Positions 33,664 to 40,369 of a stretch of 64,000 nucleotides of DNA are shown in pieces. This DNA comes from Parapedobacter koreensis. GTDB taxonomy: Bacteria; Bacteroidota; Bacteroidia; Sphingobacteriales; Sphingobacteriaceae. The DNA is taken from contig NZ_FNZR01000001.1 of NCBI RefSeq assembly GCF_900109365.1, forward strand, positions 620,001 through 684,000, in the 5' to 3' direction. Numbering within the stretch: position 1 is the first letter of the stretch; every line of letters begins with the position of its first letter. Made by a program: the position numbers and the translations under genes. A model generated the notes under the pieces. It made no database searches. It worked only from the letters and a program-made list of their open reading frames with translations, and was not told the DNA's origin.

Positions 33664-35109
33664 TCAGTAGACTTCCGATCCTTGATAATAAAATGGGAAT
33701 ATTGAATTTTCTTGATGGGCTTCATCCATTGCCTGCCTGAGTAGCGTTACGACATCAGGATGCTTATCTGCGATGTCGTAGCGCTCAATAACATCGGTGG
33801 AAAGATCATAAAGTTCAATGGGCGCATCGGCACTTTTCTTTGCCTGCAATCGCACACCTTTCCAGCGCCCCATGCGTACGGCCTGCCGACCTCCATCTTC
33901 ATGAAATTCCCAATACAGATAGGGATGTTGCCGTTGGCCGCTACGCCCCAGCAATGTGGGCACGAATGACAGTCCGTCCGTATAACGGGGTTGTGGAGCG
34001 GCGGTAATTTCCACCAACGTAGGCATGATATCCCAAAACGCGCCGAGGTGGTCTGAAATGCTGCCTGCAGCTACCTTCCCCGGCCACCTTACGATAAACG
34101 GTGTGCGAATGCCACCCTCGTAGAGATCACGTTTGACACCACGTAAGCCGCCGGAGCTATTGAAAAATTGCGGGTCGGCACCACCTTCACGATGTGGTCC
34201 ATTGTCGCTGGCGAAAATAATTATCGTATTATCCGATAGGCCCAGCTTATCCAATTGGTCCAGCACCTCACCGACATACGCGTCTAAACGCGATACCATT
34301 GCTGCAAAAGTAGCGCGGGGCTTAGACACGGAAGCATACCCGCCTACCGTGGCATCCGACCCGTAGCCATTGCCTTTATACGGGGTTTCTCCAAACGCAT
34401 GCTCATACCGCTTGTAATGTTCATCTTCCGGCCCTTGTAGTTCGGCATGGGGCAAGACGGTGGGAATGAACAGGAAAAAAGGATTGTCTTTATTGTCCTC
34501 GATAAAAGCCAATGCTTTTTCTTGAATAATAGCCGGTGCATAGTGTTTCTTCTGCGACAGGTCATTACCTTCCAGCACCACTTTTTCGGCATTATGCCAC
34601 AAATGAGTGGGATAATACCGGTGTGACTGGCGCTGGCAGTTGTAGCCAAAGAATTCGTCGAAGCCTTTACGAATCGGATCGCCGCTGGTCCCTACCATAC
34701 CCAATCCCCACTTCCCAAAAGCCCCAGTTGCATATCCGACCGATTGTAGCAGCTGGGCAAATGTCTGTACAGAGTCTGCCAACGGCTCCTGCCCCTCTGG
34801 TTGAATCTCTTTATTGCCCCGTACATACGTATGGCCCGTATGCTGACCGGTAAGCAATGCCGACCGAGATGGGGCGCATACCGCAGTCCCAGCATAGAAT
34901 TGCGTAAATCGCATGCCTTCGGTAGCAAGTCGGTCGATGTAGGGTGTATGTATCTTATGCTGGCCATAACAGCCAAGATCGCCGTAGCCAAGATCATCGG
35001 CCAAGATAAATACAATATTAGGTGGTTTGCGTGCTGATTGCTGCTGGTGTGACATACAGCGAACAAATGATGCCCCAATCAAAACAACAATGACTATTAT
35101 CTCTTTCAT
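33664..35109 (-). CDS. Exported arylsulfatase, family S1
   Basis: 481-residue formylglycine-dependent sulfatase. An N-terminal hydrophobic signal (MKEIIVIVVLIGASFV) precedes the metal-binding ILADDLGYGDLGCYG (Asp38, Asp39), then the modification motif CAPSRSALLTG with Cys78, which must be converted to formylglycine, and the late metal site SDNGPHREGG. The enzyme would remove sulfate esters from glycans or small molecules outside the inner membrane. No maturase gene is in the window. It follows the deformylase-fusion gene by 10 bases, so both are on one message. Confidence 0.93.
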   Translation of the reverse strand: MKEIIVIVVLIGASFVRCMSHQQQSARKPPNIVFILADDLGYGDLGCYGQHKIHTPYIDRLATEGMRFTQFYAGTAVCAPSRSALLTGQHTGHTYVRGNKEIQPEGQEPLADSVQTFAQLLQSVGYATGAFGKWGLGMVGTSGDPIRKGFDEFFGYNCQRQSHRYYPTHLWHNAEKVVLEGNDLSQKKHYAPAIIQEKALAFIEDNKDNPFFLFIPTVLPHAELQGPEDEHYKRYEHAFGETPYKGNGYGSDATVGGYASVSKPRATFAAMVSRLDAYVGEVLDQLDKLGLSDNTIIIFASDNGPHREGGADPQFFNSSGGLRGVKRDLYEGGIRTPFIVRWPGKVAAGSISDHLGAFWDIMPTLVEITAAPQPRYTDGLSFVPTLLGRSGQRQHPYLYWEFHEDGGRQAVRMGRWKGVRLQAKKSADAPIELYDLSTDVIERYDIADKHPDVVTLLRQAMDEAHQENSIFPFYYQGSEVY

Positions 35110-35119
35110 TTATCGAAGA

Positions 35120-36364
35120 CTATTGCCGTCTTAAACGCTTCTCCAGATACAAATCCACTTCCCCATTGATGAGCTGGTAGGTTCCGGCTGCCTGCTCGGC
35201 TAAGCGGTCGGTAAAAAGGATACCGTAAAGATGATCGGTTTCATGCTGAAAGATAACAGCTGTAAAGCCTTCAACCATTTCCTCATGCTCTTCCCCATCA
35301 GTGTCCTGATAGGTAAGACGGATGGTGTAATTGCGCAATACCTGCCCCATAGTATCCGGTATGGAAAGGCAGCCTTCCACGCCTTTACGCAACAATTTAG
35401 AGCGCCATGTGATTTTTGGGTTCACGTATAACTCCAGTGGTTCGCCAGCTTTATCAAAACGCTGCACCCAAATCAGGTTGCGATTGATACCCACCTGCGG
35501 TGCAGCGATACCCACACCTGGATGGGTTGAATCCGTTACCGCGAGGTACATCCGCTGAGCCAGTAGCGGCAAAAGTGCATCCTTGGGATCGATATCTTCC
35601 GATAGGCTTTTGAGTATCCGCGTTTCATCCGGCACCGTATCCTGGATGACGCGTAGCAGTTGCGTAGTGTCTCCTGAACGAATCAAGTTCCGTTCCGCTT
35701 CCGTCAGGGGCTTAGGCGGGACATTCGGGCGTGGTCGCTGTTTCATGGGGCCGGTATATTTTTTTTCTCCCGCTGGGATAGCGATGGACAAATTATTCGC
35801 TTTTGGCGGTACCGGGCAACGGTAGCCGCTGCTATATGCACAATAAGGGTTGTAAGCGTCATTAAAATCGATAAGGATATGGCCATCCCGGATATCGGCC
35901 ACCGACAAATCCAAGTATCGCCCACCGCCATACGTATCACTACCGTTGGTCATGTCTGTAAAGGGCAAAAACAAATGATTACGATAAATAGGACTGACAA
36001 ACAAATCCGCGCTTCGGTACAACGTCAATTCAACAGGCTCACCGTGGAGCTGGAAACGAGCTTTACCATACCGCACATAGGCTTTGCTGGTGCCATCGGA
36101 AGTAGGCATCCTAAACGGCTGCTCGTCATGAAGGAGCTCCACGCTTGCACGTATCCGATAGGTGCTGTCTGGCTCGTAATAATGGAGATATGGGGTATCC
36201 GCTTCGTTCAACGGTGTGGATGGTTCCTTCAAAAAGCCCGCCATCTTGTCTTGCCGCAGCATGAGTACGCTATCCCTGTACGTCTGCGCATAGCTTATCA
36301 CAATGCTTCCAACAAACAGTATTACAGACCATAAAACCTTTCGCAAAAGTAGCATTCGCTCCAT
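35120..36364 (-). CDS. Exported DUF1684-peptide deformylase fusion
   Basis: 414-residue fusion. Residues 1-27 look like a Sec signal (RKVLWSVILFVGSIVISYAQ). Residues ~28-200 match DUF1684: ARFQLHGEPVELTLYR, LFLPFTDMTNGSDTYGGGRY, DFNDAYNPYCAYSS and YRCPVPPKANNL. Residues ~245-410 are a complete peptide deformylase: GVGIAAPQVG (Gln290), EGCLSIP (metal Cys332) and QHETDH (His374, Glu375, His378). All catalytic residues are present. Deformylases normally work in the cytosol on nascent proteins, so an exported one is unusual. I chose the ATG at 36364; in-frame ATGs at 36394 and 36430 would extend the signal region. The sulfatase gene follows after 10 bases. Confidence 0.88.
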   Translation of the reverse strand: MERMLLLRKVLWSVILFVGSIVISYAQTYRDSVLMLRQDKMAGFLKEPSTPLNEADTPYLHYYEPDSTYRIRASVELLHDEQPFRMPTSDGTSKAYVRYGKARFQLHGEPVELTLYRSADLFVSPIYRNHLFLPFTDMTNGSDTYGGGRYLDLSVADIRDGHILIDFNDAYNPYCAYSSGYRCPVPPKANNLSIAIPAGEKKYTGPMKQRPRPNVPPKPLTEAERNLIRSGDTTQLLRVIQDTVPDETRILKSLSEDIDPKDALLPLLAQRMYLAVTDSTHPGVGIAAPQVGINRNLIWVQRFDKAGEPLELYVNPKITWRSKLLRKGVEGCLSIPDTMGQVLRNYTIRLTYQDTDGEEHEEMVEGFTAVIFQHETDHLYGILFTDRLAEQAAGTYQLINGEVDLYLEKRLRRQ

Positions 36365-36487
36365 ATTTAGCAGTAAAATTAACGGGTAACGCATCACCGA
36401 CACCGATAGCCAAAGATGCAATATCCGCATGACTTTTCCTTATTTTATTTTAGCCGACACCTCCTGAACAAATAGCCTTCTCAAGAT

Positions 36488-36521
36488 AAAGCGGAACTCC
36501 TGATGGGCAGGAGTCCGCTTT
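36488..36521. other. Long hairpin upstream of the deformylase-fusion gene
   Basis: AAAGCGGAACTCCTG (36488-36502) and CAGGAGTCCGCTTT (36508-36521) form a 14-bp stem with one bulged A and a 5-base loop. No T-run follows on the minus strand, so it may be a 5'-leader structure rather than a terminator. Confidence 0.5.
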
Positions 36522-36575
36522 GCTAACCAATTATAAACCTATATGATATGAGAAGAGACTATTGATACAAAAAAA

Positions 36576-36596
36576 CCCCTTCATTACGTGAAGGGG
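36576..36596. terminator. Rho-independent terminator after the tiny open frame
   Basis: CCCCTTCA, loop TTACG, TGAAGGGG with A-run on one side and CTTTT on the other; works in either direction. On the minus strand it lies 38 bases after the stop of the 24-codon frame. Confidence 0.8.
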
Positions 36597-36633
36597 CTTT
36601 TACATTCATGCTAGTGTATTTCTTAAAGCACCT

Positions 36634-36708
36634 TCAATGATCCATGCTACACATCGACATATAGCTGATCGCAACAGATTTATTCATTTTCAGTGTTTTT
36701 GCTTTCAT
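36634..36708 (-). CDS. Candidate 24-residue peptide gene
   Basis: Open frame of 24 codons. It begins MKAKTLKMNKSV and ends SYMSMCSMDH, with a basic N-terminal part and a Ser/Met-rich C-terminal part holding a single Cys. It has its own signals: a perfect -7 box (TATATTTG, minus strand) four bases before the ATG, a 37-bp palindrome overlapping that box, and a terminator 38 bases after the stop. I do not recognise the peptide. It could be a ribosomally made precursor, a regulatory leader, or a non-coding RNA whose short frame is chance; the arrangement as an isolated transcription unit is the supporting fact. Confidence 0.4.
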   Translation of the reverse strand: MKAKTLKMNKSVAISYMSMCSMDH

Positions 36709-36712
36709 GATA

Positions 36713-36720
36713 CAAATATA
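36713..36720 (-). promoter_or_regulatory. -7 promoter element before the tiny open frame
   Basis: Minus-strand TATATTTG, an exact TAnnTTTG match, four bases before the ATG at 36708 and overlapping the end of the large palindrome. Confidence 0.5.
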
Positions 36721-36755
36721 AAATAAAGTATACTAAAATAGTATACTTTATTTTA
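36719..36755. promoter_or_regulatory. 37-bp perfect palindrome (17-bp arms)
   Basis: Arms 36719-36735 and 36739-36755 are exact reverse complements around AAA. Within it the 8-bp palindrome AGTATACT occurs twice, 13 bp apart, like a double operator for a dimeric regulator. It overlaps the promoter box of the tiny frame. It could alternatively be the terminator of the GMC oxidoreductase gene, whose stop is 38 bases upstream on the same strand. Confidence 0.6.
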
Positions 36756-36792
36756 CAAAACACACAAATACCTGTTTTACAGTTAAATATTT

Positions 36793-38508
36793 TTACAAAT
36801 CACCTTTTTTTAACTCATTTACGGCATGATCCACCGCGCGTGCTGTAAAGGCCATATAGGTAAGCGTAGGATTTTGTGTGGCTGTAGAAGTCATGCAAGC
36901 ACCGTCAGTCACATAGACGTTTTTGCACAGGTGCAATTGATGCCATTTATTGACCAGCGAGGTTTTCGGATCATGGCCCATACGTACACCGCCCATTTCA
37001 TGGATATCGTTGCCGGGCCGGCGATTGTCATCCATAGTTTGGATGTTTGTGAAACCGGCTGTCTCATACATTTCAGTCATTCGATCATAGTAGTCCTGGC
37101 GGCGTTGCCAATCACTGTCATCATATGCTACAGAAATATGCAGCATCGGGACGCCCCAAGCGTCCTTCTTGTCACTATCTAGCCAAACTTGGTTGCTTTC
37201 CTTGGGAATGGTTTCGGCCATCATGTGCGAATGAACCCTCCAATTGCTGAGTGTTGGCGTCAATAGGCCCTCTTTAAGGCCTGTACCGACACCGTTGGTA
37301 TCCCGCATTTCTTGTCTGCTGGCACCAAAAGCTGCCGCCCATCCGCGTAAGAAATCCGTTTCCTGCCGATCAACGTTTCTGAAATTTGGTATATAACCCC
37401 CACCAGCGGGATTACGACCATCCGTTTTATATTGCAGCAGCCCGTCATATTCAGCACTGATACGCGCTGTATAGTTGTGAAATGCAACATATTTGCCTAA
37501 TAACCCATTGTCATTCCCCAATCCATTGGGGAAACGTTCAGAGGTAGAGTTTAGCAAAATCAAATTGGTATTTAGGGTCGAAGCATTTACGAAAATGACT
37601 TTAGCATAAAACTCCAGCTCTTCTTTGCTATTGGTATCCACTATTTTCACGCCGGTAGCCTTGCCCGTATCCTTGTCGTACAAGATGGAATGCACAACCG
37701 AAAAGGGTCTTAACGTAAGGTTACCAGTTTTCTGCGCCCAAGGTAAGGTGGATGAATTGCTGCTAAAATATCCCCCAAAAGGGCACCCGCGCTGGCACAG
37801 GGTGCGATTTTGGCATTGCACCCGGCCTTGCTGAATATGGATTGGCTGTGGCTGCGAAAGATGGGCACACCGAGCGCTGATCACATGGCGCCCTTTATAA
37901 TGGTTATCCACGGCTTTCCGGAAATGGTCTTCTGCTGCGTTGAGCGGGTATGCGGGCAAAAATTCGCCATCCGGTAGTGTGGCCACGCCGTCCCGATTGC
38001 CCGAAATGCCCACAAAACGCTCCACATAGCTATACCAAGGAGCAATATCGTTGTAGCGTATCGGCCAATCCACTGCAAACCCGTCACGAGCGGGGCCTTC
38101 AAAATCGTACGCGCTCCATCGTTGTGTTTGGCGGGCCCAAAGCAACGATTTTCCCCCCACCTGATATCCTCTTAGCCAATCAAATTCTTTATCTTGTATA
38201 TAGGGATGCTCTTCGTCTTTCACGAAAAAATGCGCTGAATCTTCACGATAGGCATAACAACGATTGGCTATCGGGTTCAACTGCCTATCCTGAAAGGTCA
38301 TTTCCCCTCGATGTTCCAACTCATAGGGATAGAGGTTGGTCGTGGGATAATCCTTCACGTGCACAACATCACGCCCCCGCTCCAACACCAGTGTTTTCAA
38401 GCCTTTCTCTGTAAATTCCTTAGCAGCCCACCCGCCGCTTGCACCGGATCCGATGACAATGGCATCAAATGTCCGATCCTTCACACTATCTACTGCGATA
38501 TTAGCCAT
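36793..38508 (-). CDS. GMC-family flavin oxidoreductase
   Basis: 571-residue FAD-dependent GMC oxidoreductase. FAD site: FDAIVIGSGASGGWAAKEF and ending TLVLERGRD; a Cys-rich stretch CQNRTLCQRGCPFGGY; the C-terminal catalytic region IHEMGGVRMGHDP and ATQNPTLTYMAFTARAVDHA. With the gluconate-2-dehydrogenase subunit 3 gene immediately upstream, it matches the catalytic subunit of sugar dehydrogenases such as the glycoside 3-dehydrogenase or gluconate/sorbitol dehydrogenase types. It lacks an obvious signal peptide and may be exported bound to the Tat-signal partner. The GH130 lipoprotein gene upstream suggests a glycoside substrate. Confidence 0.93.
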   Translation of the reverse strand: MANIAVDSVKDRTFDAIVIGSGASGGWAAKEFTEKGLKTLVLERGRDVVHVKDYPTTNLYPYELEHRGEMTFQDRQLNPIANRCYAYREDSAHFFVKDEEHPYIQDKEFDWLRGYQVGGKSLLWARQTQRWSAYDFEGPARDGFAVDWPIRYNDIAPWYSYVERFVGISGNRDGVATLPDGEFLPAYPLNAAEDHFRKAVDNHYKGRHVISARCAHLSQPQPIHIQQGRVQCQNRTLCQRGCPFGGYFSSNSSTLPWAQKTGNLTLRPFSVVHSILYDKDTGKATGVKIVDTNSKEELEFYAKVIFVNASTLNTNLILLNSTSERFPNGLGNDNGLLGKYVAFHNYTARISAEYDGLLQYKTDGRNPAGGGYIPNFRNVDRQETDFLRGWAAAFGASRQEMRDTNGVGTGLKEGLLTPTLSNWRVHSHMMAETIPKESNQVWLDSDKKDAWGVPMLHISVAYDDSDWQRRQDYYDRMTEMYETAGFTNIQTMDDNRRPGNDIHEMGGVRMGHDPKTSLVNKWHQLHLCKNVYVTDGACMTSTATQNPTLTYMAFTARAVDHAVNELKKGDL

Positions 38509-39093: not shown

Positions 39094-40293
39094 TTATTCG
39101 ATATCAAACGGTAAGGGATCCGGTGCAGCCGGGTTGGCAGGATCATAGACTGCTACCGCCACCCGTGAATCTGCACAACCATAATACAAAAACCACTTAT
39201 TGCCATAGTAGACCAGTCCTTCAATAAATACCGTACCATCAACATATTGCCCACTTTTTTCGAAAGATTCCATCGGACGGAGAAATGGTGCATCCAAGCG
39301 GTCGATAACTTTGCCGGGATCGTTGCTATCGAAGAGCACCTGGCCGGCGCTATAAGTGCCTTTGTTAAAACGCCGATCACCTTTCTCGGGGTCGTTCTTG
39401 CCGTTGTAAAGCAGTACAATCCCCTTGTCAGTGAGGATTGCCGGAGGGCCACATTCAGTCAGGCTGCTGTCGAAATATCCTTTCCGTGGTGAAATGAAGG
39501 CTTTCAGTTGGCCGTTTTCATCGACCACCGGATCCCATTTGATTAGATCATCGGAAGTCGCGCCATATACACCATGTTCTCCCCAATACAGCCAGTATTT
39601 GCCATTAATCTTCGTGATGACCTGGCGTCCATCCACGACCTTGGTAAGGATAGCGGCCGATTTATGTGGGGTATTGAAGATTGCCGGGTAAGTGTTGTTG
39701 CCCTTGAAGATAGACCCATGTTTTTCCCAAGTAACCAAATCGTGGGAAGTAGCGACTCCCAATCGTGGGATCTCCCTGTTCCATTGGGTATAAAACATGA
39801 CATACATACCGTCTATGGTCTGCGCGATACGGGGGTCTTCTGTCCCGCCCGGCCATTCATAAGCTTTCTGATTGTCGTCAGCGGGGTAAAAGACCGGTGT
39901 GCTTTGACGTTCGAAATAAAATCCGTCATTACTCACGGCATAGCCAAGCCGGGATGTGCGGTGGCCGATACGCACGCCGGATTTGTCTTCGGCTCGGTAC
40001 AACACGACGATCTGGCCGTCTATTACAGTGGCTGCGGGATTGAATGTATCATTTGATTCCCAGGCGACGAGGGTATCAGTCATCGGATCTTTGAAAAGGG
40101 AAGCAGCTATCGGTGAGATTACCGGATTTATACCCGCTGGGCGTTCAAAGCCTCCGAAAGCCCAATCGGGCAGTGCCCAGGAAGTATCCTGAGCCGTGAC
40201 GATCTGTTGGTCACCAGCTTGCTGATAGCAGGCTTCTAGCGTAACCATAGATGACAGCGATAGCGCAATCGCGGCAACATATCTTAGTTTCAT
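39094..40293 (-). CDS. GH130-like glycosidase/phosphorylase lipoprotein
   Basis: 399-residue five-bladed beta-propeller of the GH130/GH43-like superfamily. Start chosen at 40293, which gives a lipoprotein signal MKLRYVAAIALSLSSMVTL ending LEAC (Cys22); an upstream ATG would add a spurious extra hydrophobic segment. Motifs include PAATVIDGQIVVLYRAED, GGTEDPRIAQTIDGMYVMF and YNGKNDPEKGDRRFNKG. GH130 enzymes cleave or phosphorolyse mannosides; divergent lipoproteins like this may have other specificities. The two oxidoreductase genes lie downstream on the same strand, 36 and then 33 bases apart, implying an operon. Confidence 0.87.
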   Translation of the reverse strand: MKLRYVAAIALSLSSMVTLEACYQQAGDQQIVTAQDTSWALPDWAFGGFERPAGINPVISPIAASLFKDPMTDTLVAWESNDTFNPAATVIDGQIVVLYRAEDKSGVRIGHRTSRLGYAVSNDGFYFERQSTPVFYPADDNQKAYEWPGGTEDPRIAQTIDGMYVMFYTQWNREIPRLGVATSHDLVTWEKHGSIFKGNNTYPAIFNTPHKSAAILTKVVDGRQVITKINGKYWLYWGEHGVYGATSDDLIKWDPVVDENGQLKAFISPRKGYFDSSLTECGPPAILTDKGIVLLYNGKNDPEKGDRRFNKGTYSAGQVLFDSNDPGKVIDRLDAPFLRPMESFEKSGQYVDGTVFIEGLVYYGNKWFLYYGCADSRVAVAVYDPANPAAPDPLPFDIE

Positions 40294-40342
40294 GAGAATA
40301 AAGATAATGGATACCGCTGAAATAGCCATAAGCAGACACCAT

Positions 40343-40369
40343 AAAAAAAGCTGCCTCAAGGGGCAGCTT
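40343..40369 (-). terminator. Terminator of the cold-shock gene
   Basis: Stem AAGCTGCC/GGCAGCTT with a 6-base loop, followed on the minus strand by a run of seven T; 30 bases after the cold-shock stop codon. Confidence 0.8.

Follow-up and report, generated by a model that had tools for sequence, protein, structure and literature searches.

What is the role of a small isolated unit that begins under a long palindrome and ends in a terminator, in a part of the Parapedobacter koreensis genome that otherwise appears empty? The first-pass annotation of the window (the whole 64,000-nucleotide stretch of DNA analysed here) had described it as a complete miniature gene, possibly for a peptide precursor, a signalling peptide or a small RNA. 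We will argue from sequence comparisons that the unit is very probably a cysteine-sensing, trp-type leader-peptide transcription attenuator. As a transcription unit, the miniature gene is backed by homology to other leader units, while its reading as a peptide gene is not supported.

The whole unit lies on the minus strand, a point on which the annotation was silent. Read in that direction, it consists of the palindrome, the −7 box, four bases, an ATG at 36708, 24 codons, a TGA and the terminator hairpin. The features needed for the discussion are the following.

36719-36755, no strand: palindrome of 37 nt, operator-like; its core, 36725-36749, is AAAGTATACTATTTTAGTATACTTT
36713-36720, minus strand: −7 promoter box TATATTTG, matching TAnnTTTG
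36634-36708, minus strand: leader peptide ORF of 24 codons plus TGA, starting 4 nt past the −7 box
36649-36651, minus strand: single Cys codon TGT, residue 20 of 24, within Met-Cys-Ser-Met
36636-36634, minus strand: TGA stop codon of the leader ORF
36625-36635, minus strand: predicted antiterminator 5' arm GAAGGTGCTTT, overlapping the stop codon (pairing p = 0.002 vs shuffles)
36571-36601, minus strand: intrinsic terminator with 13 bp, a loop of 5 and a U-run, −17.1 kcal/mol
36589-36601, minus strand: terminator 5' arm, which is also the antiterminator 3' arm
36494-36516, minus strand: second hairpin, flagged as terminator-like, between the attenuator and the next gene
35120-36430, minus strand: DUF1684 plus peptide deformylase gene, proposed as a possible first target
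33664-35109, minus strand: arylsulfatase-type sulfatase (PF00884), candidate second target, 10 nt behind the DUF1684/deformylase gene

These parts agree with what the annotation had claimed: a perfect palindrome with 17-bp arms, a consensus −7 box, an ATG four bases later, a 24-codon frame and a strong terminator. The two palindrome arms (36719-36735 and 36739-36755) have 17 nt each, are 100% complementary and stand 3 nt apart; the palindrome sits directly upstream of the −7 box and overlaps it by 2 nt. It indeed contains AGTATACT twice, and this pair pattern has one match in the window and none in 100 shuffles. For Flavobacterium psychrophilum, the accessible text of PMC9723704 reports TAnnTTTG as the −7 consensus of sigma-A. 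Lone boxes of this type are not enriched in the window, with 44 found and 46 expected. The frame translates as MKAKTLKMNKSVAISYMSMCSMDH, followed by the stop. The surrounding stretch, 36431-36792, is free of frames of 100 aa or more, as had been stated, and the GMC oxidoreductase gene upstream, which ends at 36793, runs in the same direction as the unit. With its start codon 4 nt after the −7 box, the leader mRNA is probably leaderless.

When the block was compared across the genus, weak matches to the palindrome turned up near sulfur genes. One such lead came from genome G006: in front of cobA, the siroheme gene that encodes uroporphyrinogen-III methyltransferase, it has the same box below a degenerate palindrome, then a very short ORF that includes Cys, and finally a terminator. 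The 330 bases upstream were read at all of the best 30 cobA loci in the family. Leaders of this kind are present at 12 of them, in 8 of the 9 genomes of the Parapedobacter genus (P. koreensis included), 3 of the 5 of genus g15 and one of g2. At another 14 loci cobA stands close behind another gene, and the loci of G008, G099 (where the frame is broken), G026 and G066 have no such leader.

A covariance model, R1, was built from the eight cobA leaders of the genus, with the one of P. koreensis included and the window unit left out. It matches the window over its full length at 36720-36568 on the minus strand (62.8 bits, E = 8.8e-11). In a search of nine genomes, with 150 first-look candidates scored per genome, the window unit is the best match after the eight training leaders (E = 7.7e-9). 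A strict pattern that spans the stop-codon arm and the terminator arm, TGAAGNNGCTTTN{10,40}AAGCCYCTTC, misses some true leaders but gives five matches in 4 of 399 family genomes, namely four cobA leaders and the window unit, and none in the reversed control. The homology of the unit to the cobA-type Cys leaders of the genus extends from the box to the terminator, and the unit is the third cysteine leader seen in the P. koreensis genome. Its spacing is also typical: the start lies 4 nt past a TATATTTG or TATCTTTG box in 11 of the 13 leaders (12 cobA leaders plus that of the window), those of G090 and G022 starting further down.

All 13 leader ORFs contain Cys, which accounts for 28 of their 305 non-start codons (9.2%), compared to 36 of 7311 residues (0.49%) in 11 window proteins. 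The single Cys codon of the window leader is located 4 codons before the stop. Enrichment near the stop of the codons for one amino acid is what a trp-type leader would display, and the frame control is ambiguous here: TGY codons occur 28 times in frame 0, 30 times in frame 1 and 5 times in frame 2, and since ATG followed by T or C reads as TGY in frame 1, these counts alone are no proof of coding.

The remaining sequence traits of a trp-type attenuator are also present, namely a leader ORF directly after the promoter and before the terminator, and an arm shared by terminator and antiterminator, the 5' arm of the latter being located at the stop codon. Pairing between the terminator 5' arm and the bases at or shortly past the stop is better than in shuffles, at p <= 0.05, in 10 of the 13 leaders, while the other three are not significant (p = 0.26, 0.11 and 0.07); the combined p of 2e-12 is overstated because of these three and because the leader sequences are related. 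In nine aligned leaders, pairing is found in 85.6% of the antiterminator cells and 93.4% of the terminator cells, and sliding the alignment reduces it to at most 58% and 64%, respectively. The covariation of the antiterminator is modest, as 25 of 500 shuffles reach the observed level. At alignment column 136, in the shared arm, the window has C and most other leaders have T; both partners are G, such that the C of the window keeps both alternative pairs, each as G-C.

Folding of the window leader was simulated with assumed ribosome footprints. For the RNA as it stands before the 3' arm of the terminator is transcribed, the antiterminator folds with the ribosome on the Cys codon (−11.5 kcal/mol), while no antiterminator is obtained with the ribosome at the stop codon (−0.9 kcal/mol). 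It is important to note that for the full transcript at equilibrium the terminator is favoured at either ribosome position (−21.0 and −17.6 kcal/mol), and the switch would therefore have to be kinetic, operating during transcription as in known attenuators.

From the architecture, the homology, the Cys codons and the alternative pairing, all of which can be read in the DNA, we infer the transcription, the stalling, the amino acid sensed, the target genes and the regulator in the following scheme. RNA polymerase would start a few bases past TATATTTG, with the mRNA beginning at or beside the AUG, and a ribosome would translate the 24-codon leader. With plentiful Cys-tRNA, it would reach the stop codon and cover GAAGGUGCUUU, the terminator would form, and transcription would stop. 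A ribosome stalled at the Cys codon would instead leave GAAGGUGCUUU to pair with AAAGCCCCUUC, the terminator would come too late, and transcription would continue, presumably into the DUF1684/deformylase-arylsulfatase pair, the sulfatase of which could free sulfate. The palindrome over the promoter would add control by a DNA-binding regulator.

Whether the attenuator controls this pair of genes is, in our estimate, evenly balanced. For the leaders of cobA and of the sulfate operon discussed below, the target gene fits the pathway. Behind the window leader, the next genes are those for DUF1684/deformylase and the arylsulfatase, and the annotated start of the first of them is 140 nt away. Control of the pair is putative, because this gap is long and holds the second hairpin, which may uncouple the attenuator from the gene. 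The DUF1684/deformylase gene occurs in 8 of the 9 genomes of the genus, and inspection by eye of the 420 bases upstream of seven other copies revealed no leader.

The GMC protein of the window is 94% identical to that of Parapedobacter luteus, in which the distance between the aligned parts of the GMC and DUF1684/deformylase genes is 114 nt, as against 513 in the window. In P. luteus, a cupin gene follows the DUF1684/deformylase gene and the sulfatase is missing, while in P. pyrenivorans both DUF1684 and the sulfatase are absent from this place. The comparison implies that the leader block and the sulfatase are either additions in the lineage of the window or losses in the others. One result that the first-pass annotation had named as refuting its reading, a lack of conservation of the frame in close relatives, thus does occur at this place, where P. 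luteus is without the entire block. Even so, the frame has a meaning, given that both the architecture and the Cys codons are retained in the paralogous leaders.

An alternative that deserves serious consideration, although we lean somewhat against it, is that the unit is a duplicated cysteine attenuator that now controls nothing. Such a relic or decoy would yield a short terminated RNA, and the downstream genes would have their own promoter or none. The 140-nt gap with its second terminator-like hairpin speaks for this, as do the presence of only one Cys codon in the window leader, the lack of a leader at all seven other DUF1684/deformylase genes examined, and the absence of the block from P. 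luteus. On the other hand, each of the parts, from the operator and box through the start and stop-codon arm to the terminator, is intact, and a relic would not be expected to show the change in the terminator at column 136 matched in both partner arms. In addition, P. luteus also lacks the arylsulfatase, which is a gene of sulfur acquisition.

As to the two downstream proteins, we observe that in 33664-36430 the deformylase is fused to DUF1684 and its N-terminus resembles a signal peptide, although export would be unusual for a deformylase. The DUF1684/deformylase gene recurs near sulfur genes in congeners.

Weak matches of the model pointed to a second class of leaders, upstream of a sulfate-assimilation operon. 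According to Pfam domains in the P. koreensis genome itself, this operon encodes a sulfite reductase, a cobA paralogue, a siroheme-type protein, two proteins of the PAPS-reductase family and a GTPase, and we read its order as cysH, cysD, cysN. A Cys leader precedes the operon in 6 of the 9 genomes of the genus, one example being MKQTNKITMLCCMAVLK, and none was found there in G003, G004 and G008. In G003 (locus L226), the leader frame has no Cys and TGT TGC lies out of frame, as would be expected after an indel.

For the family, 76 upstream regions were taken (40 hand-picked for breadth of genera from 145 matching genomes, the 30 best-scoring loci, and six more), and 69 were evaluated, seven being dropped because the gene start was not matched. 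Each region was shuffled 100 times as a control. A tiny ORF starting 0-15 nt past a box is present in 43 of the 69 (shuffle mean 1.76), and it contains Cys in 42 (0.62), tandem Cys in 31 (0.02), and Cys together with a terminator in 39 (0). Although the search demanded TAnnTTTG only, the box is TATATTTG in 42 of 42 Cys leaders. By genus, these leaders were found in 6 of 9 regions for g1, 10 of 15 for g13, 22 of 24 for g14, 2 of 3 for g18 and 2 of 2 for g21; there were none in the 12 regions of g16 or in the single regions of g15, g2, g25 and g4. Leader peptides with Cys-Cys and Cys-Cys-Cys before the sulfite reductase (L253-L322) occur in several genera of the family and appear to be unannotated.

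Another option considered was that the leader senses methionine as well as, or instead of, cysteine, or that it stalls through a nascent-peptide effect of Met-Cys. This dipeptide is present in 12 of the 13 cobA-type leaders, and internal Met makes up 29 of the 305 codons, compared to 2.0% in window proteins. We find this improbable, as 31 of the sulfate-operon leaders have tandem Cys, and the enrichment of Met may partly reflect restarts or RNA constraints.

The compactness of the unit, with its own promoter and terminator, could also suggest a functional peptide (a RiPP precursor, a signal or an antimicrobial) or a small RNA regulating in trans, and we take the N-terminus MKAKTLKMNK to be loosely similar to Bacteroidota RiPP leaders. 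We nevertheless regard this reading as very unlikely, and the peptide precursor or signalling peptide of the earlier annotation is not supported. A search of 59 other genomes gave no match to the peptide, which also belongs to no NCBIfam or Pfam family, so neither a precursor family nor a homologue supports a RiPP or a signal. What the homologous leaders have in common is limited to the Cys (and Met) codons and the arms of the RNA, and every other residue differs. At the gathering score, Rfam yields nothing in the window or at 13 sulfate-operon loci, and only two 5S rRNAs at the 12 cobA loci; sub-threshold matches (rli38, Phe_leader and others) were taken as chance.

We next consider the palindrome, which appears operator-like and is a candidate operator common to other sulfur genes. 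The annotation had proposed to look for further AGTATACT pairs; the pattern has its one site in the 5.55-Mb genome and no additional ones. In the family, exact pairs are present in 13 of 399 genomes, with varied spacers. In congeners, sites that fit AAAGTMTACT-N5-AGTAKACTTT with no more than one mismatch adjoin susC/tonB-like genes and the gene of a YeiH-type protein (PF03601), the names susC, tonB and YeiH being assigned by eye; they also adjoin genes for a TauE/SafE sulfite exporter (PF01925), DUF1684/deformylase and an XRE regulator. A relaxed pattern with three mismatches shows little excess over its reversed control across the genome (for instance, 3 vs 3 in G000 and 4 vs 9 in G007), and we find no sites convincing apart from those that adjoin sulfur genes and have 0-1 mismatch. 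The palindrome-like site at cobA ends 2-4 nt before the box. That the palindrome is a mere 3' hairpin of the GMC operon, with the rest coincidence, is hardly credible. In favour of this are its position 38 nt downstream of the GMC stop codon and its ability to fold into a hairpin of 17 bp. Against it, similar sites stand 2-4 nt ahead of the same −7 box at cobA, where no GMC gene is located upstream, and also upstream of XRE genes; moreover, outside the AGTATACT cores the palindrome is pure A/T and has no terminator character.

The XRE gene was found in 15 of 121 genomes, with two weak matches in G102, and the palindrome is present upstream of it in 14 of 14 stronger matches. The scores of these sites range from 10.0 to 35.7, those of G026 and G124 being low, whereas chance sites in the window reach 5.8 at most; for G001 the result is circular, because its site was already part of the scoring matrix. 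By eye, 16 genomes have the palindrome-like site at cobA. The XRE gene is present in 13 of them and missing from G007, G009 and G066, and XRE was thus rejected as the sole regulator. An Rrf2 protein was also considered as the regulator; all 9 of 9 congeners have a single copy that is strongly conserved, with no operator site at its own locus. The palindrome may resemble an IscR type-1 box.

Two observations concern the neighbourhoods of these sites. At L130, L131, L133, L134 and L135, the XRE regulator, TauE/SafE and PF03601 proteins, HTTM-like and SusC-like proteins and repeated operator sites are found in an organosulfur-looking cluster. In four congeners (L136, L140, L141 and L142), cobA stands behind catalase-peroxidase-like and DUF2490-like genes, named by eye, a neighbourhood that may link cobA to oxidative defence.

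How does this attenuator compare with known systems? According to the accessible parts of the sources, mycobacteria have polycysteine attenuators on leaderless short ORFs (Canestrari et al. 2020, cited in PMC9031893 and PMC13236596), and cysteine leader attenuators have been described in Actinobacteria (PMC1262725). The mycobacterial ORFs resemble the present ones in being leaderless and short, in their Cys codons and in their location upstream of sulfur genes, and their cysteine-responsive attenuation, again on the accessible text, has its counterpart in the cysteine attenuation proposed here. They belong to another phylum, however, and a run of consecutive Cys codons is absent from the window leader, which has one Cys. 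Furthermore, the accessible text of PMC1262725 gives them no conserved terminator hairpin, in contrast to the intrinsic terminator and the antiterminator arm at the stop found here.

In Rhodobacterales, the uORFC-8-2 motif upstream of cysS combines a short ORF with Cys codons (in tandem), a stem and an intrinsic terminator, as here, and ribosome-mediated attenuation was proposed for it (PMC8632094, as far as accessible). It differs in being alphaproteobacterial and in controlling a cysteinyl-tRNA synthetase, and the accessible text mentions neither an operator palindrome nor leaderless spacing. The trp, his and leu leaders share the leader peptide with cognate codons and the arm common to terminator and antiterminator. 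Compared to them, the present leader starts directly after the promoter box with no evident Shine-Dalgarno sequence, has few Cys codons and carries an operator palindrome on its promoter. Within the same phylum, leader-peptide attenuation in F. psychrophilum and sORF leaders in B. thetaiotaomicron have been noted and are suspected upstream of amino-acid biosynthesis operons; these accounts name no cysteine leader in their accessible parts (PMC9723704, PMC7366714). The literature searched, from which most subscription papers were absent, contained no description of a cysteine attenuator in Bacteroidota. We rate the kind as known and the form as new, with its leaderless spacing, intrinsic terminator, operator, association with the sulfate operon and cobA, and occurrence in Bacteroidota.

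The Cys leaders before the sulfate-assimilation operon and cobA and the promoter operator common to organosulfur genes would fit a cysteine attenuation regulon in Bacteroidota of the Sphingobacteriaceae type, acting on leaderless or nearly leaderless mRNAs; in the lineage of the window, one copy of the switch would have been recruited together with the arylsulfatase for scavenging sulfate under cysteine starvation. We put this larger picture just short of an even chance. Trp-type attenuation needs ribosomes that follow closely behind RNA polymerase, and in Bacteroidota Shine-Dalgarno sequences are rare and coupling has been little studied. A defined family of cysteine leaders would offer a direct test of this coupling in the phylum. 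It also represents a likely control circuit for sulfate assimilation in a group of Bacteroidota, supplies a defined set of unannotated small ORFs, and includes a candidate case of an attenuator switch copied to a new gene.

Elsewhere in the window, the GH130 protein encoded at 39094-40359 scores above the NCBIfam cut-off for beta-1,2-mannosidases of the BT3780 type.
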